Positions 2,799-44,732 of a stretch of 64,000 nucleotides of DNA are shown here, one piece after another. How positions within the stretch are numbered: the stretch's first letter is position 1; the number at the start of each line of letters is the position of its first letter. A model generated the notes under the pieces. It ran no database searches. It saw only the letters and a program-made list of their open reading frames with translations, and had not been told where the DNA came from. The position numbers and the translations under genes are program-made. The stretch lies in contig JAOZGC010000002.1 of NCBI GenBank assembly GCA_027491915.1, forward strand, positions 567,344 through 631,343, in the 5' to 3' direction. The stretch is from Thermoproteota archaeon (GTDB lineage Archaea; Korarchaeota; Korarchaeia; Korarchaeales; Korarchaeaceae).

Positions 2799-3470
2799 GG
2801 CTGTTATCGGAGGACGCTCAACAGCCTTCCATTCGAAGTCGATGCCGGACTGGATCGAGACTACGTCGCCTGGAATGATGGTCCGCGGTGTTCGCCCGCC
2901 CGCTCCTCCCTCCGTCCCCCCGCCAGCACCCTCCGACCATCCGTGGCCCGCTCTAACTAGTCCCTTGCTCCCTGGGAACACCCAGAAGAGAAGAAGGGGG
3001 AAGGAAGGCCTCTCCCCTATCGTCACCTTTCTACATGCGATATCCGGGAGGGCGATCCGGCCACGTCCCGCGTTATGGGCTGGCCGGCTGTAGGACCTCA
3101 GAAACAGGGTGAGGACTCTCTGGGAGCAGATAATGGCTCTGGACTCTCATAGAGACCATCAGATCGGCCAGTATTACGTACCTGATGACTTCCCCCGCGT
3201 AAAGCTTCCTGTTGGCCAGCGGGGGAGCGGGGAGGTATGGAGTGCCAGTCGTCAGCTCTGGAGACACGGGGATGAGATGGTAGCCGGGGGATTCGCCCTG
3301 GAGAGGGCCGAGGTAATCGGGGATGATCGAAGTGATGCCCTACCTCGGCGGGTCCGCGAGGAACGCGGTTCAGTTCGGTGCCTGGGGGACTCCGACATAC
3401 CCTCTCGCTGAGCCACGGGATCGCCGCGGCCAGCAGGGGAAGGGACGGGTGGAGGGGGCCGTCCTGGCGA

Positions 3471-22786: not shown

Positions 22787-23170
22787 ATGAGGGAGGAGGC
22801 CAGGCGACTGTGGCGGCAGGCCCTGGAGGACCTGGAGACGGCCAAGGTCTTGTTGAACTCCGGCAGGTACTACGCCGCGGCCTTCTTCTCGCATCAGGCC
22901 GCCAAGAAATCTTTGAAGGCCGTCCACGTGGAGCTTAGGCGGGAGATCCCACCCAGGACCCACAACCTGGTGGAGCTGGGTAGGGTCCTCGAGGTGGGAG
23001 ACCTGATGGAGGATCTGATGGAGCTCAACCCGGAATACACGGTCTCCAGGTATCCGGACGCCGCCAACGGCGTCCCGGCGGAGATGTACAGCGAGTCCAT
23101 CGCCCGCAGGCAGGTGGAGAGGGCCGAGAGGGTGGTGAGGAGGTGCGGGGAGATCCTAAAGGCGTCTTGA
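22787..23170 (+). CDS. HEPN-domain protein (toxin candidate)
   Basis: 127 residues. HEPN core: LWRQALEDLETAKVLL, YYAAAFFSHQAAKKSLKAV, then THNLVELG and the VSRYPDAANG stretch common in archaeal HEPN proteins paired with MNT. The last codons overlap the MNT start (TTGA at 23167-23170). A leaderless first gene of a two-gene operon. Ribonuclease or structural activity is not shown by the sequence. Confidence 0.85.
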   Translation: MREEARRLWRQALEDLETAKVLLNSGRYYAAAFFSHQAAKKSLKAVHVELRREIPPRTHNLVELGRVLEVGDLMEDLMELNPEYTVSRYPDAANGVPAEMYSESIARRQVERAERVVRRCGEILKAS

Positions 23171-23511
23171 GCAGGCTGGCCTCGTCCCTCAGATCTTGGG
23201 ATCCCTCCGTCCGCCTGATACTATTCGGCTCCCGGGCCCGCGGGGACGAACTGGTGGACTCGGACTACGACCTGATCGTGATCTCTGAGAGGTTCTCCGG
23301 GATTCCCTTCCCACGGAGGGCGGTCGAGGTATGGAGGGTTCTCCTGAGGTCCGGAGTCCTCGGCGACTTCGAGTTCCTCTGCTACACCCCGAGGGAGTTC
23401 GAGAGGAAGGCCCGCGAGATAGGGGTGGTCTCCCTGGCCGCCCGGGAGGGGGTGAAAGTCGACCCCCGCCGGCGGGGGGGGACGGGGATCGATCGGGCTG
23501 CCGGGCCCTAG
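23167..23511 (+). CDS. MNT-type minimal nucleotidyltransferase (antitoxin candidate)
   Basis: About 114 residues, with the intact motif LFGSRARGDELVDSDYDLIV (GS plus DxD), so it should transfer nucleotides. MNT antitoxins of HEPN systems can modify the toxin with AMP; that is family knowledge. I start at TTG 23167 because it overlaps the HEPN stop. The frame is also open from GTG 23143. Confidence 0.85.
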   Translation: MSRLASSLRSWDPSVRLILFGSRARGDELVDSDYDLIVISERFSGIPFPRRAVEVWRVLLRSGVLGDFEFLCYTPREFERKAREIGVVSLAAREGVKVDPRRRGGTGIDRAAGP

Positions 23512-24181: not shown

Positions 24182-24303
24182 CCCGGGGGGACGCGCCGCC
24201 CGCTTTTATAGCCGCCCGGGCCCGGCGGCCGGGCCGCCGGCCGCCCCGATCCCGACTCCGGGGACCGGGCGCCCTTAATATGGGGGCCCTCCCCTGGACC
24301 CGG

Positions 24304-26178
24304 ATGGTCGGGGAGGAGGGACCAGGGGGGATATCGGAGAACAGGAGACTGGTGCTCGCGCTGCTCCTGGCGGTCCTGTCCGTCGGGGCGGCCACCGGGG
24401 TGCAGAGGACCGTCCTGTCTCTCTACTCCAGCGGCCTGGTGGGGGGTCCAGGCGGCCCGCTCGCCTACCTCCTGATATACCTCCCCATACTGAGCTTCGG
24501 CCTCCTGAAGGGGACCGTGGACCTGGCCGGGGGATGGCTCTCGGACAGGCTCGGCAGGAGGTGGGCGGCCGTCCTGGGGAGCGGGATCTACCTGGCCGGC
24601 GCCGCCGCCGTGGTCTGCGGCCGGGGTCTGGAGACGCTGGTGGCGGCCAACCTGCTGATAGGGGGAGGGGAGGGCATGCTCATGGCGGCGGCCATGATAG
24701 CCCTCTCGGACGTCGGGACCCCGGGAGAGCAGGCCTTCGGCTTTGGCCTGATGGAGGGGGCCGTCTACGGGGGGTACGGGGTGGGCTCCGTCCTGGCAGG
24801 GTACGTAGCCAGCCTCAGGGGGTACCACGACGCCTTCTGGATCTCCCTCCTGGCGGCCGCCGCGGCGTTCGCCGCCGCGGCCGGGGCGTCGGACACCAGG
24901 TCGGCCGCCTGGAGGAAAAGGGCCGGATCGGGGCCGCGATCGGGATCCGGGGCCGACATGACCACCTTGGAGGTCTACAGGAGGTGCCTGAGGAGTTGGA
25001 CGCTGAGGGCCGCCTACTTCCTGGGTCACCTGGCCAAGTTCTCCGACGCCCTGATCTGGGGAGCCTTCCCGCTGTACCTGGCCTCCCTGGGATTCGGGGA
25101 GGATACGATAGGGTGGGTTCAGGGGGCGGCAACCTTCTCCTGGGCGGCATCCATGCCCCTGGCCGGCAGGCTCTCGGACAGGCTGGGCAGGAAGGTCCCG
25201 GCGGCCGCCGGCCTGGGACTCAAGGCCCTGGGGATAGCCGGGGTCTACTACGGCGCCGGCGCCCCGGCGGTCATCGCGTCCGCCGCAGCCATAGGGGTAG
25301 GGGTCGGCATGTACTACCCGATAATGCCGGCCATCTCCGCCGACGTGGTCCCCTCCGGGGTGAGGGGCAGGGCCTTGGGCCTGTACAGGTCCCTGAGGGA
25401 CTACGGGTACTTCACCGGCGCCCTGGCCCTGGCCCTGATGTCCTCCCTCGGCATGGGGTACGCCTTCCTCCTGACCGTGGCCCTGCTGGGGGCGGGCGTG
25501 CTCGTGGTTGCCCTGGGTGTCAAGGAGACCAGACCCTACTGGCCCGCCTACGAGCAGGCCGTCAGGCACGCCGAGACGGTCTTCTCCTCCGTCAGGACCC
25601 TGAGGAAGATGGTTGAGGCCCACGCCTCCGGGGACAGGGGGGAGGTGGAGAGGCTGGCCCCCTCTGTCAAGGAGCTGGAGGCCGAGGCCGACGGGATAAG
25701 GCTGGTGGTCGACAGGATACTGTGGCTCAGCCCCTTGAAGGGGCAGGATAAGGCCGATTTCGCCAGGCTCGTCGCAAGGATGGATAGGATAGCGGCCTAC
25801 GCCCTCGGTTCGTCCCGGAGGCTCGTCCTCATAGATCCGGCACGCCTGTCGGACGGGATCAGGGAGCTCCTAGTGAAATTCGTCAGGGGGCTGGAGCTGG
25901 AGGTGGAGACCCTGGTCGGGTCCCTCAGGACCATGGGGGTCGACCTGGAGGGCTCCATCGACTCGATAGAGAGGGTTGGGGAGATAGAGAGCGAGCTGGA
26001 CTCCGTCCACGGGGAGGCCATGGAGGAGCTGGACGAGCACGGGGAGAGGCTGGACGTCCTTACCCTCCTCAACCTCAGGGACCTGATAGAGTTCATGGAG
26101 TACGCCGCCGACGTGGCTGAGGACGCCGCCGACGTCATGAGGGTCATAGTGTTCAAGCACAGCGCCTGGTCGGCCTAG
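24304..26178 (+). CDS. MFS transporter fused to a C-terminal PhoU-like domain
   Basis: About 624 residues. Residues 12-400 are a 12-helix MFS permease with the two signature loops GWLSDRLGRRWA and GRLSDRLGRKVP. Residues 410-620 form a helical bundle of PhoU/Pit-accessory type with heptad-like charged helices (LRTLRKMVEAHASGD, FARLVARMDRIAAYALGSSR, LRDLIEFMEYAADVAEDAADV). PhoU-like proteins usually act on phosphate transporters, so this may be a self-regulated phosphate or organophosphate permease; the substrate is inferred. ATG 24304 matches TATA CTTAATATG (24273-24281) at 27 nt; an ATG at 24280 lies inside the TATA box. It overlaps the convergent regulator by 26 nt. Confidence 0.85.
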   Translation: MVGEEGPGGISENRRLVLALLLAVLSVGAATGVQRTVLSLYSSGLVGGPGGPLAYLLIYLPILSFGLLKGTVDLAGGWLSDRLGRRWAAVLGSGIYLAGAAAVVCGRGLETLVAANLLIGGGEGMLMAAAMIALSDVGTPGEQAFGFGLMEGAVYGGYGVGSVLAGYVASLRGYHDAFWISLLAAAAAFAAAAGASDTRSAAWRKRAGSGPRSGSGADMTTLEVYRRCLRSWTLRAAYFLGHLAKFSDALIWGAFPLYLASLGFGEDTIGWVQGAATFSWAASMPLAGRLSDRLGRKVPAAAGLGLKALGIAGVYYGAGAPAVIASAAAIGVGVGMYYPIMPAISADVVPSGVRGRALGLYRSLRDYGYFTGALALALMSSLGMGYAFLLTVALLGAGVLVVALGVKETRPYWPAYEQAVRHAETVFSSVRTLRKMVEAHASGDRGEVERLAPSVKELEAEADGIRLVVDRILWLSPLKGQDKADFARLVARMDRIAAYALGSSRRLVLIDPARLSDGIRELLVKFVRGLELEVETLVGSLRTMGVDLEGSIDSIERVGEIESELDSVHGEAMEELDEHGERLDVLTLLNLRDLIEFMEYAADVAEDAADVMRVIVFKHSAWSA

Positions 26179-27361
26179 ACTCGGGGGGCCGCCGACGTCC
26201 GGCGGTCCCGGACGGTCCGGGCGCCTCACCGGCGGGCGGCAGTGAGACCACCCTCCTCCTGCCGACCCTCTCGGAGACCACCAGGCCGAACCTCTCCAGG
26301 AGGTCGACGTTCCTCTTGACGGTCTCCGTCGACAGACCCAGCCTGGAGGCCAGCCCCCTGATGGAGGCCGGACCCTCCCCGGCCAGGGACTCGAGTATCC
26401 TCCTCCTGGTCCTGCTCCTGACGGCAGCCCTTAGCAGGGCCCCCTCCCTCCCCCCGGGGGGGAAGAACATCTTCTCCCCGACCAGGTCCTCCGAGGATAG
26501 GAGGCCCTCTCTCTCCAGCACGGAGAGGTGGTAGGCGAGGGTGGACCTGGGCAGCCCGAGCCTGGAGCTCAGCTCCCCCAGGCTGGCAGCCCCGGCGTCC
26601 CTTATCAGGGCGAAGAGCACGGCGCGCGTGGGGTGGGCCAGGGGGCCTGCCTCCGGTTCCCGCCCAGCCTCCTCCCCCGGTCCCAGCTCCCCCATCCCGA
26701 GGCCGGCGAGCAGCGCGGCGGCCCCTCCCAGCCCCAGCCCGGCCGCCAGGGGGGCCATCCCCCCTCCGACCGGGGAGACCGAGTCCAGCACCCCCCTGAC
26801 CAGGCAGGCCGCGCCGGCCGGATCCTCCGAGAGCCACTCGGTCAGGTTGGCGGCGATCAGAACGATCTCAGGCCTTCCGCCCACCGACAGTACCGCGGGA
26901 AACCCGTTCTCGTAGACGTAGAGCAGCCTGACCCCGTCCGCCGCCACCTCGTACCTCTCCACCCCAGCGGGGACCGGCACCTCCATCAGCCTGCCCGGGA
27001 CCTCCCCCCACGGGATGGCTGTCCCCGGGGCCCGATAGACCCCGAGGACCTCTACGTGGGATCCGCTCGGGATCAGAACCGTTCCGACCTCGGCCAGGAC
27101 CATCCTCGCCCCCTCCGGGATTCCGCTCAGGCCGGAGAAGGTGACGACCAGGTCTCCGCCGGGAGATGCGGTCCAGACCACGCCGCAGGTCCCGTTCGAA
27201 TATCTCAGGGCCTCCAAGATGCCCCGAGGCGGCGACGCCAGGAGAGCCCTCCTGGTCCCCCCGCCCGGCGGCCAGGACCGACCGACGGCCGCCGATAAGG
27301 CCGCCGCGGCGAGGGCGGTCAGCACCGCGCAGGCGGCGATCCTCCTCCCCCTCCCCCCCAT
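26153..27361 (-). CDS. Membrane-anchored regulator with two cytoplasmic winged helices
   Basis: 402 residues. A signal-anchor (about 7-27) and an outside domain (30-200, beta-rich) precede a second hydrophobic segment (APLAAGLGLGGAAALLAGL, about 206-224). Inside come two winged helices: residues 245-300 (LSSRLGLPRSTLAYHLSVL, ArsR/IclR-like) and 310-370 (LASRLGLSTETVKRNVDLLE). Thus a one-component membrane regulator sensing outside. ATG 27361 has CGTAAATCG (minus, 27386-27394) 27 nt upstream, so it has its own promoter after the surface operon. Its 3' end overlaps the MFS gene tail to tail. Confidence 0.82.
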   Translation of the reverse strand: MGGRGRRIAACAVLTALAAAALSAAVGRSWPPGGGTRRALLASPPRGILEALRYSNGTCGVVWTASPGGDLVVTFSGLSGIPEGARMVLAEVGTVLIPSGSHVEVLGVYRAPGTAIPWGEVPGRLMEVPVPAGVERYEVAADGVRLLYVYENGFPAVLSVGGRPEIVLIAANLTEWLSEDPAGAACLVRGVLDSVSPVGGGMAPLAAGLGLGGAAALLAGLGMGELGPGEEAGREPEAGPLAHPTRAVLFALIRDAGAASLGELSSRLGLPRSTLAYHLSVLEREGLLSSEDLVGEKMFFPPGGREGALLRAAVRSRTRRRILESLAGEGPASIRGLASRLGLSTETVKRNVDLLERFGLVVSERVGRRRVVSLPPAGEAPGPSGTAGRRRPPESRPTRRCA

Positions 27362-27419: not shown

Positions 27420-27881
27420 TCACTCCCAGGTGATCCCCCGTATGACCACCAGACCCTCCCTCTCAAGCCTGAGCAGGGCGGCCGTTATCTCGAACACGCT
27501 AACCCCCCACTCCTCTGCCAGCTGGGCGGGGGTGAAGACCGCGTGCTCCGCCAGGTAGCCCAGGAGCCTGAGCTCCAGCTCCCCCAGGTCGCCCGCCTCG
27601 GCGGCCGCGGAGGTGACCCCAACCATCAGCCTGTACCTGGTGGGCACCGACGGGAGGACCTCGGAGTGGTAGCTCGACAGGCCGGCGAAGACGCCGGCGA
27701 GCGCGGCCAGAGCGGCGGAGACGACCACCTGGACCTCGCTCAGCCAGGACGAGAGGACCGCCACAACCATGAGGGACAGGGCCGAGACGGCCAGCCCCAT
27801 CTCCAGCGCCGCGGCCGTCCTCCTCCTCTTCCTCCTCCTGAGGGCCTCGTCCAACCCCAGGATTCCCCCTCTCCTCATCAA
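27420..27881 (-). CDS. Small two-TM protein with C-terminal winged helix
   Basis: 153 residues. A basic N-terminus (RRRKRRR) is followed by two helices (about 28-48 and 52-72), a linker with a periplasmic or cytoplasmic loop, and a winged helix at 95-153 (LRLLGYLAEHAVFTPAQLAEE, VFEITAALLRLEREGL). It begins two nt after the stop of the 3204-residue surface protein, so it is translated with it. TTG 27881 or ATG 27878 is the start. Probably a membrane-tethered DNA-binding partner of the surface operon. Confidence 0.75.
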   Translation of the reverse strand: MMRRGGILGLDEALRRRKRRRTAAALEMGLAVSALSLMVVAVLSSWLSEVQVVVSAALAALAGVFAGLSSYHSEVLPSVPTRYRLMVGVTSAAAEAGDLGELELRLLGYLAEHAVFTPAQLAEEWGVSVFEITAALLRLEREGLVVIRGITWE

Positions 27882-27883
27882 GG

Positions 27884-30800
27884 CTATCGCCTCCCTCCTC
27901 CCGGGAGGAGGGGTATCAGGATCACCTCAAAACCCATGTCCGCGGCGAGGGCGGCCCCCCTGGCGTCCGACAGGGCCACCCCGCGGACCCCGACCTCTGC
28001 GGCGGCCAGCAGGCCGGCCGCCAACTCCAATCCCATGCCCGTCCCCCTCGCGAGCGCGAGGGCCTCCACGAACCTACCCTCGTCCAAGCCTATCACCTCG
28101 ACCTCCCCCCCGACGAGGAGTCTCTCCACCATCGGAGCCACGGCCGGGTCTCCCATCGCCACGGACAGCGTGGCCTCGGACACGGCCGCCCTGAACCCCC
28201 CCGTGAGCTCCTCCAGGCCGCCGCCCGAGAGCGCGGCGAACCTCAGGGAGCCGTAGTCGAGGAGGGTCAGCCTGCCCCCCCTTCTCCTCCTTATGGCCAG
28301 CATCAGGAGGGCCGCGGCCGGCAGGGCGAGCGGACCCTCGAACGAGGCCGCCGCCAGGGAGGACCTGGGTATGGTGACGACGCTGGAGGCCCTCAACCCG
28401 TAGGGCGGCAGCTCGGCCACGTTGATCACGTCCCCGGTAAGCCCGGCCGATGCCCTGGCCCTGAAGGAGACCACCATGACCTCGCCCCCGCCCACGCGGG
28501 CCTCCACCCTGACGACCCCGCCGGAGGCCGAGGCCGCCCTGACGAGCGCCCCCTCCACCGAGAGCGAGCCCGGCACGACCCTGACACCGCCCGGGAGATT
28601 GTCGACCAGGGTCACGTCCGCGGCCCCGTCGCTGCGGACCGTCACGACGTACGATATGGCCCCGCCGCCGAGGTAGCTCCCCGCCTTGCTCAGGCTCACG
28701 TTGGGTGGCGGGGGGAGGACCCTCAAGGCGCAGTCGGCCGACAGGTTCCCCGCCGTCACCGAGTTCACTACCTCCCCGCCCGCCCCCCCGACGACGACGG
28801 CCTGGAAGGAGGCCCTGAAGGCCTCTCCCGGGGAGAGCGGCCCCACCCTCCACCTGAGCGTCCCCGAGGAGTACTCAGCTTCCGGGGAGGCCGTCCCGGC
28901 CACGTACCTCAGGTCGGCCGGCAGCCTGTCCTCCACGACGACCTCCCCGGAGGGTCCGTCCCCGGAGTTCTCCAAGGAGATGGTGAAGGTGACCGCGCTC
29001 CCCAGCGCCACACCGCCGGCCGGGCAGGTCTTCCTCAGGGTGAGCCTCGGGGCTGCCGTGACGTTCGGCCCGCGCGCCGGCCCGGGGGGGTAACCGCCCA
29101 CTATCCTCACGGCGGCCCTGGCCACCTCTTCCCCGCCGTAAACCACCGTGTTGTAGACCACGTCCGTCCCCCTGGGCCTGGCCACCGCCTCGGCCTCGAA
29201 CTCGACGTCCGCCGCCTCCCCCGGGTCGAGCGGCGGGAGGCTCCAGGTGAGGGAGCCCCCATCCCGGGCGGGCTCGGCCGGGACGCCGTCGACGGAACCC
29301 GACCCCCCGACGTACCTGAGCTCCGGCGGCAGCCTGTCGGTCAGGACGACGCCGGAGACCCTGGTCTCCCCGACGTTCTCCACGACTATCCTGAACCCGA
29401 CCCTATCCCCGACCCCTATAGTCCCGGGACGGGCCTCCTTCGTGAACCTGAGCTCCGGCGGCCGGGGCCTGACTCCCGGCCGGGGACAGGCCAGGTCCGG
29501 CTCCACGACCTCCGCCCCTACCAGCCCTCCTCCCCTCAGCGGGATCTGGGAGCCGGAAGGGTGGAATGTCACCGTGAAGTTGACCGAGGCGTAGTACCGC
29601 GGGAGGTCCGGGGCCGCCGGGTCAGGCCACCAGGATCCCACCCACTCCCCCCCGGGGGGGACCGGGGCGCCCGGGCTCTCGCACCGGACGAGCCTGGATC
29701 CCGCCCCCCCGGGGGGTCCCCCCTCCCAGACGCAGACCCCGTCCAGCTCGTAGTCCAGCCCGGAGGCCAGGTTCTCGAAGGAGGGCCTGACCAAGTACCC
29801 GGACTCGGTTCTGTTCTTCTCCACGCCCGCCGCGGCCGGCCCGACCGCCCTAAGGGAGGTCACCCTGCCCAGTATGGAGGCCCAGTCCCTCTCGTAGTAG
29901 AGGATGGCCGCCGGCAGCCGGGCGGACGCGGTCAGGGTGGCCCTCCCCCTCAGGGTCGCCGAGCAGGACTGCCCCGCCGAGACCGAACCGATCGTCCAGT
30001 TGAGGACCCCGCCGTCGATCGATACGGATCCGCAGCTGGCCGACGCCGACGTCGGCCTCAGCCAGCCCGGGATCTCCTTGGTGAGGCGGACCCCCCGGAG
30101 GTCGCGTGAGAAGTCCAGCCTTATCTCCACCCTGACCACCCCGGGGGACCCGCAGGCGGCGGAGTAGGACGTCGACTCTGAGGCGGACGCCGGGAAGTCC
30201 GCCAGCGACGGGTCCGCCTCGTACCTCCACCTCACCCTCCCCCCGGGCGGGAGCTGCGGGACGTGCAGCGGGGGGGCGGCGGTCGAGTTCGAGGGGATCG
30301 GGTAGTCCGGGTAGATCGAGTAGCCCGACGGGTCCAGGTCCACCCACACGTCGTAAACCGGATCCGGGCTCGGGTTGGAGACCGTCAGGAGACCCCAGAG
30401 CCTCGACACCTCCGCGGTGCCGTTGGGATAGAGAGTGGCCTCGACGAACTCCCGGGCCGACAGGTTGATCCCGCCCGGCGGGTCCAGGCCAACCTCGAGC
30501 GCCTCCGACAGCTCGTAGTCGGAGGAGCCGCAGGCGGCCGACCCCATCGTGTACCTGACCAGCGCGCTGTCGTCCGCCGATCCGGCCGGGCCCAGGTCCA
30601 CCCTCCACCAGTAGACTCCCCCCGAGCTGCCGGCGTGCGGGGGGTCCTCCCAGGTGAGGCCCATCCCGTCGGGGATCTCGTCGTAAACCAGGATCCCGAC
30701 GGCCGGATTATAGGCCCAGTTCGTCACGTTCAGGGTCACGTTGTACTCGCAGGGGGACGCCGGCTCGATGGACTTCCTCACCGTCAGGTTGAGGGAGAGC

Positions 30801-33800
30801 CTCCCCACCCTGACGTCGGGGCCGAACTCCGAGGTCCCGTTGCCCGGGAGGCTGGCCGTGGCCGTGACCAGGTCCCCCTCCTCCACCGTCACCGCCGCCC
30901 CGGACAGGTTTATCCACCCGGAGAAGTTGCCCGCGGGATCGACCGTCAGGTTCCCCAGGTAGATCCACCCCTCGCCGTAGAGCTCGCCCGTCCCCGGGTA
31001 GTAGTTGCCGGCCAGGTCGTCCCCGCCGACCGACGAGTTAACCAGGAAGACCTCCACCCTGGCGCCCGCGAAGTTCGGGGATCCCGCGCCGGCCCCCTCC
31101 GAGTTCAGGAACCCCCTCACGTAGAGCAGGTCCCCCTCCAGGCCGGCCACCGATATGACCGGGTAGTCCACCCCCCAGTCGGCCGCCGAGGAGTTGAGGA
31201 GCCCGTCGTTCTCGGTGACCCCGTCCCCGTCCCCGTCCGAGTTCGGGTCGGCCGACCCGGCGTCCAGGTCTATCCCGAGGCCCGAGTTGTTGTAGAAAGA
31301 GTTCTCCGATATCGTCACGTTCGCCGCGGGGGACTTCACCGTCAGACCGGAGCCGGCGTTGCCGGCGATCACGTTCCCGCGGACGATCACCCCACCCGAG
31401 AAGTTGGGGAAGAAGACGACGCCCACGTCCTCCGGGCTCGGGGCGCCGCCGGAGAAGCCGTTGTGCCTGACCGTGTTCTCCTCCAGGGAGCCGCCCACCC
31501 TGCCCAGCACCTCCATCCCCGCGCCCACCTGGTCCTCGACCAGGTTCCACCTGACCGTCAGGTTCCTTATCTCCCCGCCGTAGGCTATGGCCAGGATCCC
31601 GTCGTAGGTGCTGGTCTGCCCGCTCGTCGGGGCGCCCACGACGTTCTCCTCTATCGTCACGTCCGAGGCCAGCTGCGCGGACGAGGTCTCCACCCTTATC
31701 CCCGAGTTGTCGACCCTGACGTAGTTGTGTCTCACCATCGCCCCGCTGGTGGACCCCAGGATCCCTATACCGTAGTACGCCCCGGTCGGGGTCGGATCCG
31801 AGCCGTTGGCCATCATCCCCACCAGGTTGTCCTGGACCGCCAGGTTGTCCGCCCCGACCCCCCTCACGGTCCCCCCGTAGAGGGCCAGCCGGGATATCCC
31901 GCAGCGCGCGCCGGTCACCTCCAGGGCGACCGAGTTCCACCCGTCCACCTCGACCTCCGGCCTGTCGAACGGCCGCACGTGGTGGCCCCAGACGCCCACG
32001 TCCCACCCTGAACCCATCCAACCCGGGTTCGAGTCCCTGACCGTTCCGTTCGGCCAGAACACCGTCCCGTTCAGGGAGGTGTCGTCGTCCGATATCTGTG
32101 GGAGCGGTCCCATCGTGGAATTCAGGGCGATGTTCCACCACGCGCCCGAGGCGTCTCCGGAGTTGGGAGGAGTCGCCATGACGAACCAGCTCCTGTCCGC
32201 CCCCGATATGGCATTTGCGTTTTGGAGGAACTGCCTCAGGGTTCCCTGGGCTGTCCTCGGCGCCGACGGATCCTGATCGGAGTCCGCCGGGTTGACCACC
32301 AGGTCGAAGCTGAACCCGAAGTCCAGGCTCTCCCCCCGGTACTTCCCGGCTTCCACCCGGGAGAAGTGCTCGCACGGGCTTCCGGGCCTCCAGAGCATTA
32401 GGTCGTCCACGTAGTACTCCCATCCGCCGTGGACGACCACCCGGTCGAACTCCCCGTAGGCGGAGTCCGTCGCCCTCACCTCGGCCAGCACGTGGCCTGA
32501 CTGGTCGAGGACCTGAAAGGCCAGGGTGTGGTTCTCGAAGAAGATCATCCTCCAGAAGTACCAGGAGTCCTCCGGGGGATCCCAGCTGACCGTGGCCGAT
32601 ATCCTGGTCGGGGAGCCGTCGGTCCTCCTGTCTATCCAGATCTTCCCGGTGTTGTGGTTCACGGCGAAGGTGTAGCCGTCGAAAGACCCGTTTTCGAGCC
32701 CTATCCTGTCTATCGGTCCTCCAGACCAACCGCTCGGCCTGTACACGTATCCCTGGAGTATGTAGCCCCAGCCCACCGTCTCCCCGAGGAGCTTATATCC
32801 GCCGTTGGGGTCGTTGTGCAGGGTCTTCTTCAGGCTGTACCTGCCCCCGTGGGCCTGCTCGGAGGATCGCACCACCACGCCGGAGAGGTAGTTGTTCCAC
32901 CCTGACCAGACCTCGAAGTCGTCCCTGAAGGGGACGGTCAGGCTGCAGGCGTCGCTGACGGTCGGATCGGCGCCCCCGAACTTCTCCTCCCCGGAGTGGG
33001 CCGTCCCGTTCCAGCCGACCTGATAGGTCTGCTCCGCCCAAGTCTCATCCCATGATCTGCCGGGGTTCAGCCCCCTGGGCGACGTGAGGCTCCTGGAATC
33101 CACGGCCACCAGGTAGGTGCGGTTCCCGGCCAGGAAGGAGTATCTCCCGGAGGCTGACGTGGACGTCACGTCCACCAGCGCGTCCATGTAGGGGTCGAGC
33201 TCCCCGTCCCCGTCGTCCAGGAAGAGGCCGACCCTGGCCCCGCCTATGGGGGAGTCGGCGGGCCCGTACCCCGACGCGAGGGGCCAGGAGTCCTCGAACA
33301 CGACGCCCGTCAGGTTGGCCCTGACCTCGAAGGGGGCCTCGCCGACGTTGAAGAAGTCCGTGTAGTTCACCCCGGTCGGCCTCCCGGGGATGTGTATCAG
33401 GCCGTCGTACCTCGGCCCCAGGAGAGAGGAGGTGGAGTCGTTGGCCAGCACCACGACCCTCCACACCCCGAGGGGGGCCCCGGGCGGTATGTCGTAGACG
33501 TCCGAGTTCGTGAACTCCCCGTCGTTCGCGGCCGGGTCCCCGTGGGTTCCGTCGTCGTACAGGGGGGCCGAGGCCACGAGGTTACCGGACGGGTCGTAGA
33601 CCCTGCAGACCACCGACTCCGGGGCGGCGTCCACGGCCGCCCTGACCTCCAGGGGGCCGTAGGTCTCCACCCCCCGGGGCGCGGTCACGTTGACCCCGAA
33701 CCCCTCCACCATATCCGCCTCGACCACCGCCGTCGAGTTCGCCCAGGTCAGGTTGTCCACGTAGGCCCACGTCTTGTAGAGGTCGTCGGAGAAGGTGTGG

Positions 33801-36800
33801 ACGGTGAAGTTGATCCTGACCAGCTCCCCCTCGTAGGCGGAGAGGTCGTACGAGGCGGACAGCCACCCGGAATCGTTGAACCTCCCGTAGCCGTTCCCGG
33901 GATTCGGGTTGTACGGCGCCAGGATGGTGTCCAGCAGGCTGTTGTCCGTGGCGTTCCTCAGGGTGACGGTCAGGTAGTCGTAGTTCTCCGAGTCCCACGA
34001 CTCCACCCTGTACCAGAAGTGGATCTCGCCCCCCCCTTTGGGGACCATGATGTCGTAGGAGGCCCACGTGTCCTCGCCCGCCGAGGTGTAATCCTCGGTC
34101 GCGTTCACCCTGTACCCCACCACCACCGAGTACCCCCCGAACAGGGGCAGCCCGTCGTCCGCGACCTGAGACGGGGTCCCGTAGGAAGAGTTGGCCAACA
34201 CCAGGTAGGGGCCGGGCGGGCTCGCCTCCACGATGGACTCTATCCCGGCGGGGCTCTCGCCCCAGGACCACCCGGTCAGGGTGCCCGAGTCGGCCCCGCT
34301 GTTCAGGGTGTTCAGCTGGGACTTGGCCCCGTTCTCGAGCACGTCGAAGTAGACGTAGAAGGTGGATGTGGACGGGAGATCTTTCGGCAGGAGGAACTTC
34401 ACCAGCCCGGAGCTTGGGCCCGTCGGGATGTACTCCTGTCGGGGGACCAGCGCCCCGCTCGGGTCCACCACCCTGACCGAGTTGTTGTCGAAGGTCCCCG
34501 AAACGTTGAGCCTGGACAGAAGGGACCCAAAGTCGACCGAGGCCAGGACGGTGTGCCACGCCGTCAGGGCGGGGACCTTCAGCGGCACCCTGTAGTGCCA
34601 GTCCTCCCCCCGATCCGGTCCGTCGGGATCCCACCACGGGGGGACCCCGTACAGGACGTAGTAGTACTGGTTGGGATCGTCGTAGAACACGACCTCGTCT
34701 CCCGCCTGATACCACTCGTCCACCCGGCGCGTCGAGTTGTTCCCCACCGCCAGGACCCCGCGGCATTCGGCCCCGGGGGGGAGGCGGACCTCGACCCTGC
34801 GCCAGGCTGCGGCCGACTTCCCCCCAACCTCAACCAGCAGCCTCCCGGCGCCGGCCGATCTCACCCTCGGCGCCGGGGCCGGCTCCGGGAGGGGGGAGGA
34901 GGGCCTCTCGATGAAGACGGTGCCGCTCGAGTTGATGAGGACCTCCCCCCGCCCGATCTCGATTTCCCTCCCGCCCGAGATGAGGCGGCCGCCGACCCAC
35001 TCCCCCCCCAGGCGGAGGACGCCGGGCTCCTCCACCTCCAGCACCTTGACCGACCAGAGCGACTCCGTCCCCTCGGCCTCCAGCCCCGCGATCTCGTTTA
35101 CCCTCGCCTCCCCCCAGCCCCCGCGGGTTGGGGCGGCCCCCGGGGTTCCGACCCGGGCCGGACCGGGCGCCGCCAGGACGAGTTCCACCCTACCGTCGGC
35201 CGACCCGTCCGGATCGGAGGGGCCCCCGTCCTCCACGGCGATGGAGACCGTATCCCCCGCCGGCCCGACGGCGGCCCTGACGGCCGGGAGGAGGGTGCGG
35301 GGGTCCAGCGCCGCGAGGCCGGCGGGCGCCGACAGGTTTGCGGAGAAGCCCGGGTCCCCCTCCAGGGAGACCCTCACCAGGGTCCACCCCTCCCACCTCC
35401 CCTCGCCGGGGGACAACCCCCCAGGCGAGAGGCACGCCCCGGCCGCCTCGACCGTCAGGTTCCCCACAGAAACCTCTGATCCGCACCCGGCCGTCACGTG
35501 CACCTCCACCACCTTGGAGGCCGTCAGGTTCCCGCGGGCCGCGCGGATCTCCAGCTCGTAGTCCCCGGGGTCTAGCCTCCCGAGGTCTATCCGGACCGAC
35601 CCCTCCGCCTTGACGGAGCCCTCCCTCACCGGCCCGCCGCCCCCCCGGAGAGTGAAGTTCAGGGTGGCGTTCGCCGGCCGCCCGTCCTCCAGTACCCCTA
35701 TCTCGACCTCGACCTCGCCGGCCGGCAGCCAGAGCTCCCCCCCGACCTGGAGGCTCAGGCCCCCCTCCGGGGCGCCGCCGGGGATCGAGACGGGGACCTC
35801 CTCCTCGGCCCCGAGCCCCATCCACTCGGCGGAAGCGACGACCACGTAGTCGCCCGGGGGGAGGTCGGGCAGCCTCACCAGGGCCTCTCCCCCCTCGGTC
35901 TCCGACGAGAGGGACAGGTTCTCCCCCCCGACCCCGGGGACAGTCACGGTCACGTTGGCCCCGTCCAGCGGGCCGGAGGCGACGCCGGCGACCGATATCC
36001 TCAGGGCGCCGTCGACCGCCGTCGCGTTGAGCGAGATCACGTCCACGAGGAATTCCGCCGACGCCTCCTCCTCCACCCCGGAGACGTTGGCCCTAACCTC
36101 CACCGAGTACAGGCCCAGCTCCACGGACGAGTTCAGAGGCACCTCGCACGCCCACCCTCGCCCCATGGGTCTAGGCCTCAGGGTTCTCTCCAATCCCCCC
36201 GGCAGCCTGAGAGTCACCTCGGGCGCCCCCGAAATCTCGCCCGACGATCCCACCGTGATGCTGACGGTGTCCCCCGGAGAGTAGGCCCCCCTATCGGTCT
36301 CAACCCACACCAGGCCCGACGGGGCGGTGAGGCTAACCGAGACCTCCCCGTATACCCCGGCGGTGCTCGAGATTCGGATCGAGACGCTGTACTCCCCGGG
36401 AGACCAGGGCTCGAAGTTCAGGTGGCACGACCCCCCGGAAACCTCCCCCCGGACGGACGAGTTCCTCCCGTCCGGCCCTCTTATCAGGGCTGTGGCGTTC
36501 CCGTCGACCGGGGACCCGTTCACCCCGTCCGAGACCGTCAGGTTCACCAGGCAGACTCCCGCCCGGCACCCAGCCCTTGCCCTCACGTCCAGGACGTCCA
36601 CCTCGAACGCGGCCGACGCCTCCAATCCGCCGGCCTCGGCCGTCGCCCGGTACTCCCCCAGCGGGGTGGGGGTGCCCGGGAGGAAGATCCCGCGCCACCA
36701 GGTCTCGTTGATGGCCTCCACCTCCACCCGGAGGGTGGTCCCGGTCGGATCTGTCACCTCCAGGGACGGCTCCCCCCTCCCGTTCCAGGCCACCCAGATG

Positions 36801-37498
36801 GTCACCCCCTCCCCCGGTCGGTGGACCCCCCCTCCCTCCACCCGGAGCCAGAGCGCCTGGGGGAGGTCCGCCGAGGCCGCCCCCTCCAGGGGCCCCGACT
36901 CGGCCCTGACCTCCACGGCCGACGATCCCGGGGGTATGGAGAACTCTGCCTTTCCCTCAGAGGCAGCGGCGATCTCCAGTCCGGCCGGGAGGACCACCAG
37001 GGTCAGGTTGGCCGGGATCTCCCGGCCGGAGACAGCCGAGGTCGTCCTGATCCTGATCGTGAGGTTCTCGGCGTAGGGCGAGGGATCCACATCTACCTCG
37101 ACCGCGTCGAGCGTGAGCTCGGTCGAGGCCAGGACGCCCCCCCCGGGGGACCTGACCTCCAGCCGGTAGGGGCCGGGGTCGAGCCCGGAGGTGTCAATCT
37201 CGAACTCCACCCCGGAAGGGGTCCGCCTCACCCCGGAGACCGGGGACCCCGGGAAAGCCTCGATCCTTCCACCGGGGTCGGCCCCGACCAGGGGCTCCGT
37301 CCACCCGGTCGGGGCGATCAGGAGCACCTCCCACGGTCCGGGGACTGTGCACTCCACCCGCACCTCCTCCCCGAGGCCGTGCAGCCCCCCGCCCTCGACC
37401 CTTACGCCGGGCCCGCCGGGCAGCCCGGAGGCCCGGCCCGAGGCGCCAACCGCAAGGAAGATCAGGGCGAGCGGGATCACGGGGGAGGTCCTGGACAC
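27884..37498 (-). CDS. Giant multidomain surface protein with TM helix and PIN-like cytoplasmic tail
   Basis: 3204 residues, uninterrupted. A signal peptide (1-24) is followed by repeated beta-sandwich modules of macroglobulin/Ig type to about 880 (each with a strand like YSPGDTVSITV). A DUF2341-like domain near 966-1050 contains WHYRVPLKVPAL and FYVYFDVLENG. After it come further jelly-roll and SdrD-like modules (GGARVGLFLDDGDGELD), a lectin-like domain at about 1513-1710, and a right-handed beta-helix at about 1850-2100. Near 2690-3030 there are three DUF11-type repeats (GVVLTDRLPPELRYVGGS, EVVVEDRLPADLRYVAGT). A TM helix (about 3050-3070, LALPAAALLMLAI) is followed by RRRRGG and a 129-residue cytoplasmic tail that resembles a PIN domain. 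GTG 37498 is 6 nt after the upstream stop. Many N-glycosylation sequons. Likely adhesin or sensor; function inferred. Confidence 0.85.
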   Translation of the reverse strand: MSRTSPVIPLALIFLAVGASGRASGLPGGPGVRVEGGGLHGLGEEVRVECTVPGPWEVLLIAPTGWTEPLVGADPGGRIEAFPGSPVSGVRRTPSGVEFEIDTSGLDPGPYRLEVRSPGGGVLASTELTLDAVEVDVDPSPYAENLTIRIRTTSAVSGREIPANLTLVVLPAGLEIAAASEGKAEFSIPPGSSAVEVRAESGPLEGAASADLPQALWLRVEGGGVHRPGEGVTIWVAWNGRGEPSLEVTDPTGTTLRVEVEAINETWWRGIFLPGTPTPLGEYRATAEAGGLEASAAFEVDVLDVRARAGCRAGVCLVNLTVSDGVNGSPVDGNATALIRGPDGRNSSVRGEVSGGSCHLNFEPWSPGEYSVSIRISSTAGVYGEVSVSLTAPSGLVWVETDRGAYSPGDTVSITVGSSGEISGAPEVTLRLPGGLERTLRPRPMGRGWACEVPLNSSVELGLYSVEVRANVSGVEEEASAEFLVDVISLNATAVDGALRISVAGVASGPLDGANVTVTVPGVGGENLSLSSETEGGEALVRLPDLPPGDYVVVASAEWMGLGAEEEVPVSIPGGAPEGGLSLQVGGELWLPAGEVEVEIGVLEDGRPANATLNFTLRGGGGPVREGSVKAEGSVRIDLGRLDPGDYELEIRAARGNLTASKVVEVHVTAGCGSEVSVGNLTVEAAGACLSPGGLSPGEGRWEGWTLVRVSLEGDPGFSANLSAPAGLAALDPRTLLPAVRAAVGPAGDTVSIAVEDGGPSDPDGSADGRVELVLAAPGPARVGTPGAAPTRGGWGEARVNEIAGLEAEGTESLWSVKVLEVEEPGVLRLGGEWVGGRLISGGREIEIGRGEVLINSSGTVFIERPSSPLPEPAPAPRVRSAGAGRLLVEVGGKSAAAWRRVEVRLPPGAECRGVLAVGNNSTRRVDEWYQAGDEVVFYDDPNQYYYVLYGVPPWWDPDGPDRGEDWHYRVPLKVPALTAWHTVLASVDFGSLLSRLNVSGTFDNNSVRVVDPSGALVPRQEYIPTGPSSGLVKFLLPKDLPSTSTFYVYFDVLENGAKSQLNTLNSGADSGTLTGWSWGESPAGIESIVEASPPGPYLVLANSSYGTPSQVADDGLPLFGGYSVVVGYRVNATEDYTSAGEDTWASYDIMVPKGGGEIHFWYRVESWDSENYDYLTVTLRNATDNSLLDTILAPYNPNPGNGYGRFNDSGWLSASYDLSAYEGELVRINFTVHTFSDDLYKTWAYVDNLTWANSTAVVEADMVEGFGVNVTAPRGVETYGPLEVRAAVDAAPESVVCRVYDPSGNLVASAPLYDDGTHGDPAANDGEFTNSDVYDIPPGAPLGVWRVVVLANDSTSSLLGPRYDGLIHIPGRPTGVNYTDFFNVGEAPFEVRANLTGVVFEDSWPLASGYGPADSPIGGARVGLFLDDGDGELDPYMDALVDVTSTSASGRYSFLAGNRTYLVAVDSRSLTSPRGLNPGRSWDETWAEQTYQVGWNGTAHSGEEKFGGADPTVSDACSLTVPFRDDFEVWSGWNNYLSGVVVRSSEQAHGGRYSLKKTLHNDPNGGYKLLGETVGWGYILQGYVYRPSGWSGGPIDRIGLENGSFDGYTFAVNHNTGKIWIDRRTDGSPTRISATVSWDPPEDSWYFWRMIFFENHTLAFQVLDQSGHVLAEVRATDSAYGEFDRVVVHGGWEYYVDDLMLWRPGSPCEHFSRVEAGKYRGESLDFGFSFDLVVNPADSDQDPSAPRTAQGTLRQFLQNANAISGADRSWFVMATPPNSGDASGAWWNIALNSTMGPLPQISDDDTSLNGTVFWPNGTVRDSNPGWMGSGWDVGVWGHHVRPFDRPEVEVDGWNSVALEVTGARCGISRLALYGGTVRGVGADNLAVQDNLVGMMANGSDPTPTGAYYGIGILGSTSGAMVRHNYVRVDNSGIRVETSSAQLASDVTIEENVVGAPTSGQTSTYDGILAIAYGGEIRNLTVRWNLVEDQVGAGMEVLGRVGGSLEENTVRHNGFSGGAPSPEDVGVVFFPNFSGGVIVRGNVIAGNAGSGLTVKSPAANVTISENSFYNNSGLGIDLDAGSADPNSDGDGDGVTENDGLLNSSAADWGVDYPVISVAGLEGDLLYVRGFLNSEGAGAGSPNFAGARVEVFLVNSSVGGDDLAGNYYPGTGELYGEGWIYLGNLTVDPAGNFSGWINLSGAAVTVEEGDLVTATASLPGNGTSEFGPDVRVGRLSLNLTVRKSIEPASPCEYNVTLNVTNWAYNPAVGILVYDEIPDGMGLTWEDPPHAGSSGGVYWWRVDLGPAGSADDSALVRYTMGSAACGSSDYELSEALEVGLDPPGGINLSAREFVEATLYPNGTAEVSRLWGLLTVSNPSPDPVYDVWVDLDPSGYSIYPDYPIPSNSTAAPPLHVPQLPPGGRVRWRYEADPSLADFPASASESTSYSAACGSPGVVRVEIRLDFSRDLRGVRLTKEIPGWLRPTSASASCGSVSIDGGVLNWTIGSVSAGQSCSATLRGRATLTASARLPAAILYYERDWASILGRVTSLRAVGPAAAGVEKNRTESGYLVRPSFENLASGLDYELDGVCVWEGGPPGGAGSRLVRCESPGAPVPPGGEWVGSWWPDPAAPDLPRYYASVNFTVTFHPSGSQIPLRGGGLVGAEVVEPDLACPRPGVRPRPPELRFTKEARPGTIGVGDRVGFRIVVENVGETRVSGVVLTDRLPPELRYVGGSGSVDGVPAEPARDGGSLTWSLPPLDPGEAADVEFEAEAVARPRGTDVVYNTVVYGGEEVARAAVRIVGGYPPGPARGPNVTAAPRLTLRKTCPAGGVALGSAVTFTISLENSGDGPSGEVVVEDRLPADLRYVAGTASPEAEYSSGTLRWRVGPLSPGEAFRASFQAVVVGGAGGEVVNSVTAGNLSADCALRVLPPPPNVSLSKAGSYLGGGAISYVVTVRSDGAADVTLVDNLPGGVRVVPGSLSVEGALVRAASASGGVVRVEARVGGGEVMVVSFRARASAGLTGDVINVAELPPYGLRASSVVTIPRSSLAAASFEGPLALPAAALLMLAIRRRRGGRLTLLDYGSLRFAALSGGGLEELTGGFRAAVSEATLSVAMGDPAVAPMVERLLVGGEVEVIGLDEGRFVEALALARGTGMGLELAAGLLAAAEVGVRGVALSDARGAALAADMGFEVILIPLLPGGGRR

Positions 37499-37504
37499 CG
37501 GGGC

Positions 37505-38299
37505 TCACCCAACCCCCCGGGAGGGGCCGCCGCGACCGGTCCTAGACCTGAGGATGGTCGCGATCCCCGCCGCCGCGACCGCCGCGGCCGCGGATCCCCA
37601 GAGCGCGGCGTAACCGGGCACCGGAAGCCTCGGCAGCGGGAGCCTGCTGGTCTCCACCCGGACGTCCAGGGTCCGCCCCGGCCCCAGGCCGGAGAGGGGC
37701 CAGCCGTCCCCCTCGGGTGGGGGATCGGCGTAGGTTATGACCTCGCCCTCGGGTGGGGTGATCAGGAGGCGACCCCCCTCCACCTCGGAGGACAGGGGGC
37801 CCAGGGTCAGCCGCGACTCCTCGAACAGCACCCCCCTGGTCGAGACGCCCCCCACCTCGAACCGGATCTCGAACCGCTCGCTCTCCCCGGGCCTGAGGGG
37901 CTGCCACATGGAGCACCTGATGATCAGTGTGTCCCCCTCCCTCATGGCCACCACCTCGAGCTCGGCGCCCCTGGTTGGGTCCCTCCCCTCCAGTCCCTCC
38001 ACCGAGAGGTTCCCTCCGCCCCTGGGGGCCAGCCTAAGGATCACATATCCGGGGACCACCGGCACCTCCCCGTCGTTCCTCAGGACTCCGGCCACCCTGA
38101 ACCCGGCCGAGCCCGAGTCGCTCAGGCTGACGTCAACGTCCAGCCTCTCGAAGACTATCGGGTTCTCGGCCTGGGCCGCCGCGCCGCGGACCCCGGGGGA
38201 CGCGAGGGCCAGGGCGATCGCGAGGATGAGAAAGAGACCGGGCGGCGGGATCGGTCCGACCCGGATCCCCCGCCCGAGCGGGCGCGTATGGACCCTCAC
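37505..38299 (-). CDS. Exported single-TM protein of the surface operon
   Basis: 264 residues. A signal peptide (about 18-41, LFLILAIALALASPGVRG) leads to two beta-rich domains (45-225) with strands such as ELEVVAMREGDTLIIRC, then a C-terminal TM helix (AALWGSAAAAVAAAGIATIL) and a short basic tail. GTG 38299 overlaps the upstream TGA (GTGA), and the next gene starts 6 nt after its stop, so it is an inner member of the operon. No family recognised. Confidence 0.75.
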   Translation of the reverse strand: MRVHTRPLGRGIRVGPIPPPGLFLILAIALALASPGVRGAAAQAENPIVFERLDVDVSLSDSGSAGFRVAGVLRNDGEVPVVPGYVILRLAPRGGGNLSVEGLEGRDPTRGAELEVVAMREGDTLIIRCSMWQPLRPGESERFEIRFEVGGVSTRGVLFEESRLTLGPLSSEVEGGRLLITPPEGEVITYADPPPEGDGWPLSGLGPGRTLDVRVETSRLPLPRLPVPGYAALWGSAAAAVAAAGIATILRSRTGRGGPSRGVG

Positions 38300-40455
38300 C
38301 CTCGGCGCGACCTCCACCGCAGAAGGAGCGCCTCCAGCGCGGCCGCCGCCAGGACCACCGCCGCCACCAGCGGCTCCGGCGTGGACGCCCCCAGCGCCAC
38401 GCCGGCGCTCGGGGTGATCACGGCCGAGGCGTCGAGGGTGTTCCTGGGGTCGACGCCGACCACGTAGACGTCGGACACGTTGTAGTCTCCCGACCCCTGG
38501 AGGCAGTAGTGGACCACCACCGGGTTGTAGATCGGCATGTTGAGGTTGGGGTACAGGCCCTGGGCGGATATCACCACCTTTCCGCCCCCGGATATCCCGT
38601 CCTGGACCCAGGAGACCGTGAAGTTGGTCTCGCCCGGCTGGCCGTCGTAGACCGTGAAGGTGGACCCCTCCGCCCTGTCGGTCCCGTTGACGTTGACCGT
38701 TGAGTCGTCCACGGGGTACACGTGCAGGTGGACCGTCGTCCCGTTGGCCAGCACCACCGGCTCGTCCCTGGCGTTCCCGCTCCCGGTGCCGGCGAACCAG
38801 TCGGAGAATCCCCTCTGGGGCGCCGGTATCGGGTAGCTCTTCCAGACGTACCCGGAGGAGTAGCCGGTCGGGTTGGTCTTCAGGCTGTAGTCCGGCGGGC
38901 TGCCGCCCGGATCGGCGTCCTGGGCCAGCATCGAGAGGGGCCTGAATATCATGTTCCCCTCGGTGGCCGCCGGGTTGGCGGCGAATCCGGCGGGCACGAG
39001 GTCGTAGAACTCCACGTAGGGGGTCGGCCACTCGCCCACGTTGTGGAGCTCCACCGTCACGCACACCACGTTGCTGGTGCCGTTCCCCCTGACCTCCTTC
39101 CTGGCCTTGACCAGGTATCCCCTGACTGCCCAGATCTTCTCCCTGACCACGTAGACCGAGTAACCGGACGAGTTCTCCCCGTTGATCGATCCAGTGTAGT
39201 TCCACCAGCCGTTGACCTCATCCCTCTGTATCCTGAACCTGAAGCTGGCCCACACCTTGGGCACCCCGGAGTAGGTGAAGTTATAGGGGGAGGAGGGGTG
39301 CCGGTAGGATGTGGAGGCCTCGCCCGGGCCCACCGAGGCCAGCGGGGAGCCGCTGGAGGTCTGGTTGGTCCCTGATATGAGCCCGGTCCCCGGATCCCTG
39401 CCGGTGGTGGCCCAGACGCTGGCCCTGACCACCTCGTAGTCGAAGGTCCCGCTCGTGTCGTAGAACACGGCGGCCTCGGTCCAGCTGTCAGCCTTCTTGG
39501 TCCCCTGCTCCTTCTGCGTCTCCAGATCAGCCCTGCCGACGGAGTACACGTAGCCGACGTAGTTCCCGGTCAGGGTCCCCCCGTAGTGGAACTGGACGAA
39601 GATGGTGCCCATCCCTATCTTCTGGGTGCTCCCGCCCACCTCGGACAGGTCAGGCGTCCCCTGGATCTTGGCGTTCCTCAGGTGTACCGGGCTGCCCGCC
39701 GTCACGGTGAACCAGTTGTCCGGCCAGCTCCCATCCCCCGTCCAGTACAGCGACTTGCCGTCCGCCGAGAGCGACGTCCCCCCCGCGTCCGGGGTCCCGC
39801 CGTCCGTGAACACGGGGTTGTTGGCGGCGTTGGCCCACCCGTCGCCGGCCTTGTTGTCCGCCGGGAGGACCTTCCTGACCCTGACGCTGACCGAGGGCAG
39901 CGTGGTGTCGATGGTCAGATTGAGGCTTATCTGCTGGCTCTGCCCGTCCACTATCTTCTCCGGGTAGATGGACTCGCTGACCTCTATGGGGGGGCAGGCG
40001 GACATCCTCGACCCGTTGACCACGTACCGCAGGACCACCCTGTCCCCGGGGCGGAGCTCCGTTATGTGCACCCAGGTCATGGCGGCAGGGTCACCGTATC
40101 CGGCGGCCGGGTAGGTGTTGATCACCCAGTTGGGCGCCGACTCCTGGGTCACCGAGGCGTAGGAGGGGCTCTCCTCCACAGTCAGGGCGGTTATGTAGTA
40201 GCCAGAGGGCACCCCGCCCAGGTAGAGCGGCACCCACAGGTCGGACGCGACCTCCGGCGCGCCGTTCTTTATGGTCACGTTCCCGGTCACGTTCCACGGA
40301 CCGCAGAGGGAGTGCACCCCGTCCGTCTCGACGGTCGCGTTGACGGACTCCGTCAGGTATATGCTCAGGGGGGCGTCCGGGTTTGCCGCGACCCTCAGGA
40401 CGTAGGCCGAGGAGGAGAGGAGGAGGGACAGGACGGCGAATCCCAGGATTCGCAT
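38296..40455 (-). CDS. Large glycosylation-site-rich surface protein, first gene of the operon
   Basis: About 719 residues: signal peptide (1-25), long beta-rich ectodomain, C-terminal TM helix (EPLVAAVVLAAAALEALLL) and WRSRRG. It has more than a dozen N-x-S/T sequons and slightly fewer GC-rich codons than its neighbours, as expected of an abundant S-layer-like or stalk protein. Two subdomains end in strands recalling DUF11 (VVCVTVELHNVGEWPTPYVE). ATG 40455 is preferred: CTAAAG-type AT-rich sequence (minus, 40486-40496) is spaced for it and the signal peptide then starts MRILGF. TTG 40482 is the longer option. Confidence 0.72.
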   Translation of the reverse strand: MRILGFAVLSLLLSSSAYVLRVAANPDAPLSIYLTESVNATVETDGVHSLCGPWNVTGNVTIKNGAPEVASDLWVPLYLGGVPSGYYITALTVEESPSYASVTQESAPNWVINTYPAAGYGDPAAMTWVHITELRPGDRVVLRYVVNGSRMSACPPIEVSESIYPEKIVDGQSQQISLNLTIDTTLPSVSVRVRKVLPADNKAGDGWANAANNPVFTDGGTPDAGGTSLSADGKSLYWTGDGSWPDNWFTVTAGSPVHLRNAKIQGTPDLSEVGGSTQKIGMGTIFVQFHYGGTLTGNYVGYVYSVGRADLETQKEQGTKKADSWTEAAVFYDTSGTFDYEVVRASVWATTGRDPGTGLISGTNQTSSGSPLASVGPGEASTSYRHPSSPYNFTYSGVPKVWASFRFRIQRDEVNGWWNYTGSINGENSSGYSVYVVREKIWAVRGYLVKARKEVRGNGTSNVVCVTVELHNVGEWPTPYVEFYDLVPAGFAANPAATEGNMIFRPLSMLAQDADPGGSPPDYSLKTNPTGYSSGYVWKSYPIPAPQRGFSDWFAGTGSGNARDEPVVLANGTTVHLHVYPVDDSTVNVNGTDRAEGSTFTVYDGQPGETNFTVSWVQDGISGGGKVVISAQGLYPNLNMPIYNPVVVHYCLQGSGDYNVSDVYVVGVDPRNTLDASAVITPSAGVALGASTPEPLVAAVVLAAAALEALLLRWRSRRG

Positions 40456-40575
40456 CCCTCGCAATCCTACCACCTTATTCAAGCTTTAGATTTGACTTTC
40501 TCGCCGATACGGCCACGGTCAAGCGAGTTTGAGATCCTAATAAACCCTGTAGCCGCGGATCCAAACGCCGGGACC

Positions 40576-44342: not shown

Positions 44343-44732
44343 TCACCGCTTCCCCCGGCCGCCCGTCCTCCCCCGGGCCGCCTCGACGACCCCGAGGTCG
44401 TCCACCAGCGCCACCCCCCTGGCCACCTCCTCGGCGAACCTGGGGGCCTTCTCCAGCAGCCGCGCGAGGTCCCCGGGCCTGAGGGGCATGGGCTCTATCC
44501 CCGGCCTCAGCTCGGCGGAGATCAGGTCGAACCTCCTCAGGGGATTCTCCGGCAGCCTGGGGGACACTATCAGAACGTCTATGTCGCTCCACTCGTTGAA
44601 GTCGCCCCTGGCCGTGGACCCTATGACTATCACGGAGGCCGGCCTGATCGAGGGGTACACGGCCTCGGCGAACTCCCTGGCCAGCCTCAGCCTGAGCTCC
44701 CTCTCCCTCCTCCTCCTCTCAAGGATCTCCAC
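44343..44732 (-). CDS. MNT-type nucleotidyltransferase (antitoxin candidate)
   Basis: 129 residues, intact motif VIVIGSTARGDFNEWSDIDV with GS and DxD. GTG 44732 lies inside the end of the HEPN gene (46-nt overlap), a common arrangement for these pairs. Probable antitoxin that adenylylates or binds the HEPN partner; this is inferred. Confidence 0.85.
   Translation of the reverse strand: MEILERRRRERELRLRLAREFAEAVYPSIRPASVIVIGSTARGDFNEWSDIDVLIVSPRLPENPLRRFDLISAELRPGIEPMPLRPGDLARLLEKAPRFAEEVARGVALVDDLGVVEAARGRTGGRGKR

Follow-up and report, generated by a model that had tools for sequence, protein, structure and literature searches.

PIN-fold tails with degenerate active sites on giant archaeal surface proteins, and their linkage to a membrane winged-helix gene

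Described systems and the giant surface protein

The nearest described architecture to that reported here belongs to the SPEARE proteins of Nanohaloarchaeota, in which a giant ectodomain is followed by a TM segment near the C-terminus and a cytoplasmic part that is conserved and similar to type III restriction enzymes (PMC6642349). The PIN superfamily, which includes the VapC toxins and Nob1 (e.g. PAE2754, 1v8o, and P. horikoshii Nob1, 2lcq), is represented in VapBC by a small soluble toxin encoded beside a small antitoxin gene. In SMG5, a soluble eukaryotic NMD factor with no membrane link, the PIN domain is without catalytic residues and works through partner binding, completing a paralogous nuclease (PMC12923823). 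Membrane-bound winged-helix regulators that act with an associated membrane protein are known in ToxR/ToxS and TcpP/TcpH (PMC10269533).

The window analysed here, a stretch of 64,000 nucleotides from a korarchaeal host (1.12 Mb, 70% GC), encodes a protein that resembles each of these in part. Its gene (27884-37498, reverse strand) is a single uninterrupted reading frame of 3,204 residues with a GTG start and a TAG stop, the latter included in the coordinates. Hydropathy indicates a signal-like hydrophobic segment at the N-terminus (approximately residues 1-25, 37424-37498) and a sole C-terminal TM segment (approximately residues 3051-3069, 28292-28348), which aligns in homologues together with the basic cluster that follows it. 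The ectodomain between them matches Pfam models for DUF11 repeats, Beta_helix, MG2-like and other non-protease stretches, including a right-handed parallel β-helix region (residues 1932-2085, 31244-31705; PF13229, E 2e-12 for the protein) and five DUF11 stretches, the best at residues 2819-2921 (28736-29044; PF01345, E 1e-36 for the protein; NCBIfam TIGR01451). Behind the TM segment lies a tail of 135 residues (3070-3204, 27887-28291) that starts RRRRGG. A basic cluster after a TM segment marks the cytoplasmic side, according to the positive-inside rule, and the ectodomain holds 63 N-glycosylation sequons and 22 Cys against zero Asn and zero Cys in the tail; both features are in keeping with a cytoplasmic tail.

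The giant thus shares with SPEARE proteins a very large ectodomain, a TM segment near the C-terminus and a nuclease-like cytoplasmic domain. It differs in that its tail has a PIN fold and no restriction-enzyme match in Pfam, in that the laminin-G and serine protease domains found outside in SPEARE are absent from its ectodomain by Pfam, and in that the available text on SPEARE describes no linked winged-helix gene (PMC6642349). Nor does the locus have the form of VapBC, as its PIN-like domain is the C-terminus of a 3204-residue membrane protein and the neighbouring gene encodes a two-TM winged-helix protein.

Third-position GC is nearly equal in the tail (0.90) and the remainder of the giant (0.92), which indicates that the tail is coding and shares its frame with the rest of the protein. 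An assembly or fusion artefact was considered and rejected, given that the fused frame is found in many genomes and that purifying selection acts on its tail. Internal initiation yielding the tail as a separate product was likewise rejected: the only starts within residues 3041-3110 are ATG 3066, inside the TM segment, and GTG 3106, past the first strand and motif I.

Fold and active site of the tail

The preliminary description of this stretch had read, by pattern, a PIN order of strands and helices after the TM helix and RRRRGG, and had suggested modelling the tail against PIN structures, with a different predicted fold counting against the assignment. An AlphaFold2 model of the tail (alignment A1) has a mean pLDDT of 90.7 and a pTM of 0.84, and its predicted order, b1-a-a-b2-a-a-b3-a-a-b4-a-b5, is that of PIN domains. 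In a Foldseek comparison of this model with the PDB nearly all of the first 40 ranks are PIN proteins, with matches to PAE2754 (E 5e-4), PAE0151, AF1683, Nob1 (TM 0.64), VapC15 and VapC20. Profile comparison leads to the same family: with the tail profile P. horikoshii Nob1 (2lcq) is found at E 0.009, hhalign scores this profile at 97.3% against 11 soluble archaeal PIN proteins, and the wider tail profile A5 scores 96.8% against soluble PINs over 120 columns, motif I included. A search with A5 retrieved soluble ORFs of PIN size in many archaea, in register and with E down to 2.5e-13. Structure prediction, Foldseek and profile-profile comparison therefore bear out the proposed order, and the contrary outcome, a fold unlike PIN, did not arise.

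The relationship can be detected only through profiles and structure. Single-sequence searches with the tail (Pfam, PDB phmmer and NCBIfam) gave nothing useful, and none of 13 tails matched the Pfam PIN model, as against all 11 of the soluble comparison proteins that matched PF01850. No Pfam model recognises the tails, which in this respect, and in their TM linkage to a giant ectodomain, differ from the PIN superfamily that they resemble in fold, element order and profile.

The active site was examined by aligning 40 tails with 13 soluble PINs. In the window tail two of the four PIN catalytic acids, the first and the fourth, are present: D3081 at the motif I position (28256-28258) and D3178 at the motif IV position (27965-27967), both of which the preliminary description had placed correctly, in its first Asp strand and its last Asp. 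It had also proposed a Glu helix and a third motif with Glu in place of Asp. The helix, which follows b2, is correct, but its Glu (E3108) lies off the catalytic position, which is occupied by V3113 (28160-28162); the Glu proposed to replace Asp, E3158, immediately precedes L3159 (28022-28024), the residue at the third catalytic position. Alignment and profile comparison agree on the loss of both acids.

This degeneracy is general. None of the 40 tails has the full set of four acids; three are kept in 7, two in 24 and one in 9, and Lys or Arg stands at the catalytic Glu position in 24. In the same alignment all four acids are intact in 11 of the 13 soluble PINs. A tail lacking conserved acidic residues in its homologues had been named as grounds for rejecting the PIN assignment; of these acids only the first Asp is conserved, in 36 of the 40 tails, and the remaining three positions are degenerate, so that an RNA-cutting nuclease is unlikely for most tails. 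Fold prediction and profile place the tail in the PIN superfamily, and judged by its active site it is not a PIN nuclease. Read from sequence, the tail would make an unlikely two-metal nuclease but may still bind metal or RNA, and it is plausible that the conserved Asp pairs with the new Lys in a salt bridge that would stand in structurally for the metal. In being a catalytically degenerate PIN fold the tail resembles the PIN domain of SMG5.

Two further observations concern related sequences. In several orthologues of the giant (L004-L008) the sixth helix is the last element of the tail, the final strands being absent along with the fourth Asp. A soluble PIN-like protein of 156 residues (L073, 305-772, reverse strand, G008:C166), has R and K where the Glu and the third Asp would stand, and may be related to the tails.

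Distribution of the tail in two archaeal phyla

The suggestion that the same tail might be found on other archaeal surface proteins proved correct, with about 30 such proteins in the host phylum and about 20 in a second. Searched with only the tail as query, 61 genomes gave matches at the extreme C-terminus of other large surface proteins in the same organism family, and nearly all matched loci share the TM segment, the basic cluster and a motif of the [VI]xDYxxL type. Profile A1, built from 17 tails, gave 31 strong matches in 20 of 29 host-phylum genomes, amounting to about 30 surface proteins with the tail at their extreme C-terminus; nearly all lie in large surface-type frames of approximately 500 to 3,500 residues, the exception being a frame cut by a contig end. 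A scan of named genomes with profile A2 found seven loci, with the labels Crenarchaeota or Thermoproteota archaeon.

Values of dN/dS for the tail of approximately 0.04-0.4 indicate purifying selection, which argues that the tail is not debris and, together with its recurrence in some 30 surface proteins, that its presence is beyond chance. In a subgroup of 2,546-2,556 residues the tail diverges fast, with 38% identity against 61% for the ectodomain. A separate PIN-tailed family of 1,260-1,320 residues (L119-L124) is encoded by a single gene at the same site, beside a topoisomerase-like gene, in the six genomes examined, and is a candidate for the major surface protein of its genus.

Tail-profile matches beyond the host phylum pointed to another archaeal phylum, of which 29 genomes were covered. 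Its surface proteins include about 20 that terminate in a TM segment, a basic cluster and a related tail; their lengths are roughly 300-3,360 residues, some being truncated at contig ends, and one genome has six of these proteins. Their ectodomains are diverse, with DUF11-like stretches, Cys-repeat modules and Thr-rich linkers. One surface protein of this phylum (L141, 576-3206, forward strand, G401:C234) carries two PIN-like tails in tandem. The model of a second-phylum tail has a pLDDT of 92, and its Foldseek list is mixed (PilT-N/PIN and HARP, plus other Rossmann-like folds), so that the PIN assignment in this phylum depends chiefly on profile similarity to the first-phylum tails, at 97.7% over the whole domain; compared directly with soluble PINs the second-phylum tails score 83%. 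A search of 394 archaeal genomes gave almost no further surface-type frame with the tail.

The linked winged-helix gene and the role of the tail

Five genes on the reverse strand form a conserved cluster, in which that of the giant is the third. The first (38296-40482) encodes a secreted, TM-anchored protein of 728 residues, an S-layer candidate with homologues in 9 loci and no curated Pfam family above cut-off, and the second (37505-38260), directly upstream of the giant, a secreted protein of approximately 251 residues with one C-terminal TM segment and homologues in 10 giant loci; the two genes thus recur upstream of 9-10 other giants. The fourth gene (27420-27881), whose start codon lies 2-5 nt past the giant stop, encodes a conserved neighbour of 153 residues, with a TM hairpin, almost no extracellular part and a C-terminal winged helix similar to MarR_2 (E 7e-5) and GntR, below the curated Pfam cut-offs. 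The fifth (26153-27361) encodes a protein of 402 residues in which an N-terminal ectodomain and a TM segment, read from sequence, precede two winged helices that match Pfam above the cut-offs (HTH_20, 1.5e-19; HTH_24, 2.8e-17). With a DNA-binding domain and a TM segment it qualifies as a transmembrane transcription regulator, and it has homologues in three other loci. The cluster is also found in another family of the host phylum (L107).

Elsewhere in the window, two adjoining small genes (22787-23511, forward strand) appear to make up a toxin-antitoxin pair of known type, one resembling HEPN and the other an MNT-type nucleotidyltransferase (GSRARGDELVDSDYD), and a second, lone MNT-type nucleotidyltransferase (GSTARGDFNEWSDID) is encoded at 44343-44732 on the reverse strand. 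One frame at 24280-26178 on the forward strand encodes an unusual fusion of an MFS transporter with a PhoU-like DUF47 domain (Pfam MFS_1, 8e-35; PhoU_div, 3e-17).

The two-TM winged-helix gene is strictly linked to the tail. Across the whole host phylum its full-length profile strongly matched 15 genes (E ≤ 7e-33), each in a different genome and each directly adjoining a PIN-tailed gene; every other match covered the generic winged helix only. A start codon is found -4 to +6 nt from the giant stop in 13 of 14 measured loci, a spacing that makes translational coupling of the two genes likely. In the subgroup of about 2,550 residues and in G008 (L112-L114, L117, L118) the TM hairpin of the linked protein is preceded by an additional helical domain of approximately 110 residues at the N-terminus.

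The degenerate active site and the linked DNA-binding-like neighbour together suggest that the tail signals or anchors rather than cuts RNA. The preliminary description had held that the tail would couple outside contact to RNA cleavage or signalling; cleavage is unlikely for most tails, that of the window included, and signalling gains support from the strict linkage to a membrane winged-helix gene. We propose that a PIN domain lost its nuclease active site, becoming a pseudo-PIN, and was then reused as a cytoplasmic docking module that would couple the surface complex to a membrane-bound regulator, a reading to which we give about an even chance. Sensing or holding the envelope would fall to the giant ectodomain. 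The tail, for which the co-translated two-TM winged-helix protein is the most likely partner, would make physical contact with this membrane-bound DNA-binding protein and retain or release it, thereby adjusting expression, possibly that of envelope genes; the signal would then run inwards from the surface. Such an arrangement would be similar to ToxR/ToxS and TcpP/TcpH in that a regulator-like winged-helix gene abuts the gene of the presumed associated protein, and would differ in that the latter is a surface protein of 2,500-3,500 residues with a PIN-like tail, and in that regulation is here a proposal from the genes. Against docking it can be said that an operon may merely serve stoichiometry, that seven tails keep three acids, that the tail of the 2,546-2,556-residue subgroup is quick to diverge, and that the winged helix of the partner falls below Pfam cut-offs.

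Docking to the winged-helix protein would in any case not account for every tail. Around the 1,260-1,320-residue PIN-tailed genes a constant neighbour was sought and none was found, unrelated genes flanking them and the two-TM winged-helix gene being absent, and the same search around the second-phylum genes found none either; the general function of the tail therefore cannot depend solely on this partner. It is possible, if rather unlikely, that the tail is a mechanical handle with no part in signalling, a folded domain that stops translocation and anchors the giant, or that tethers surface proteins to a shared scaffold in the cytoplasm. One tail type on unrelated ectodomains in two phyla, often encoded by single genes, would suit this role, as would the retention of the fold while the tail sequence diverges and the tandem tails within one protein; however, a handle would leave the strict linkage to the membrane winged-helix protein unpredicted, and a short basic stretch would be enough for stop-transfer. 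We consider it improbable that the pseudo-PIN tail instead joins an active soluble PIN, or titrates a VapB-type antitoxin, and so controls RNA cleavage indirectly: the SMG5-SMG6 pair, in which a catalytically dead PIN completes an active one, is a precedent (PMC12923823), and the same genomes hold many soluble PIN genes with intact acids, yet none of the soluble PIN genes shows linkage to the tail genes and no partner was found. Least probable, and to be doubted strongly, is an active nuclease switched on by extracellular contact in the manner of IRE1, for which the PIN fold, the two acids of the window tail, the widely kept first Asp and the restriction-enzyme-like cytoplasmic domain reported for SPEARE (PMC6642349) could be cited, but which is at odds with the lack of any four-acid tail, with Lys or Arg at the Glu position in most tails and with the orthologues that have lost the last strands and the fourth Asp.

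In the literature searched on PIN domains with S-layer or archaeal surface proteins we found no description of such a tail, though an earlier one may exist. Returning to the docking module, we suggest tentatively, as something short of probable, that a worn-out PIN domain serves archaea of two or more phyla as a general cytoplasmic tail of giant surface proteins, and that in Korarchaeota-like lineages this tail controls a co-translated membrane winged-helix protein, the two forming an envelope-to-gene signalling pair of an undescribed kind. The tail would be a further instance of a nuclease fold reused for docking, and offers a marker with which to find and classify the surface proteins of uncultivated archaea. 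To our knowledge, almost nothing has been learned of the means by which archaea detect what happens at their surface layer; a common cytoplasmic tail on dozens of uncharacterised giants, with a linked partner in one lineage, would make surface sensing testable with small soluble domains.
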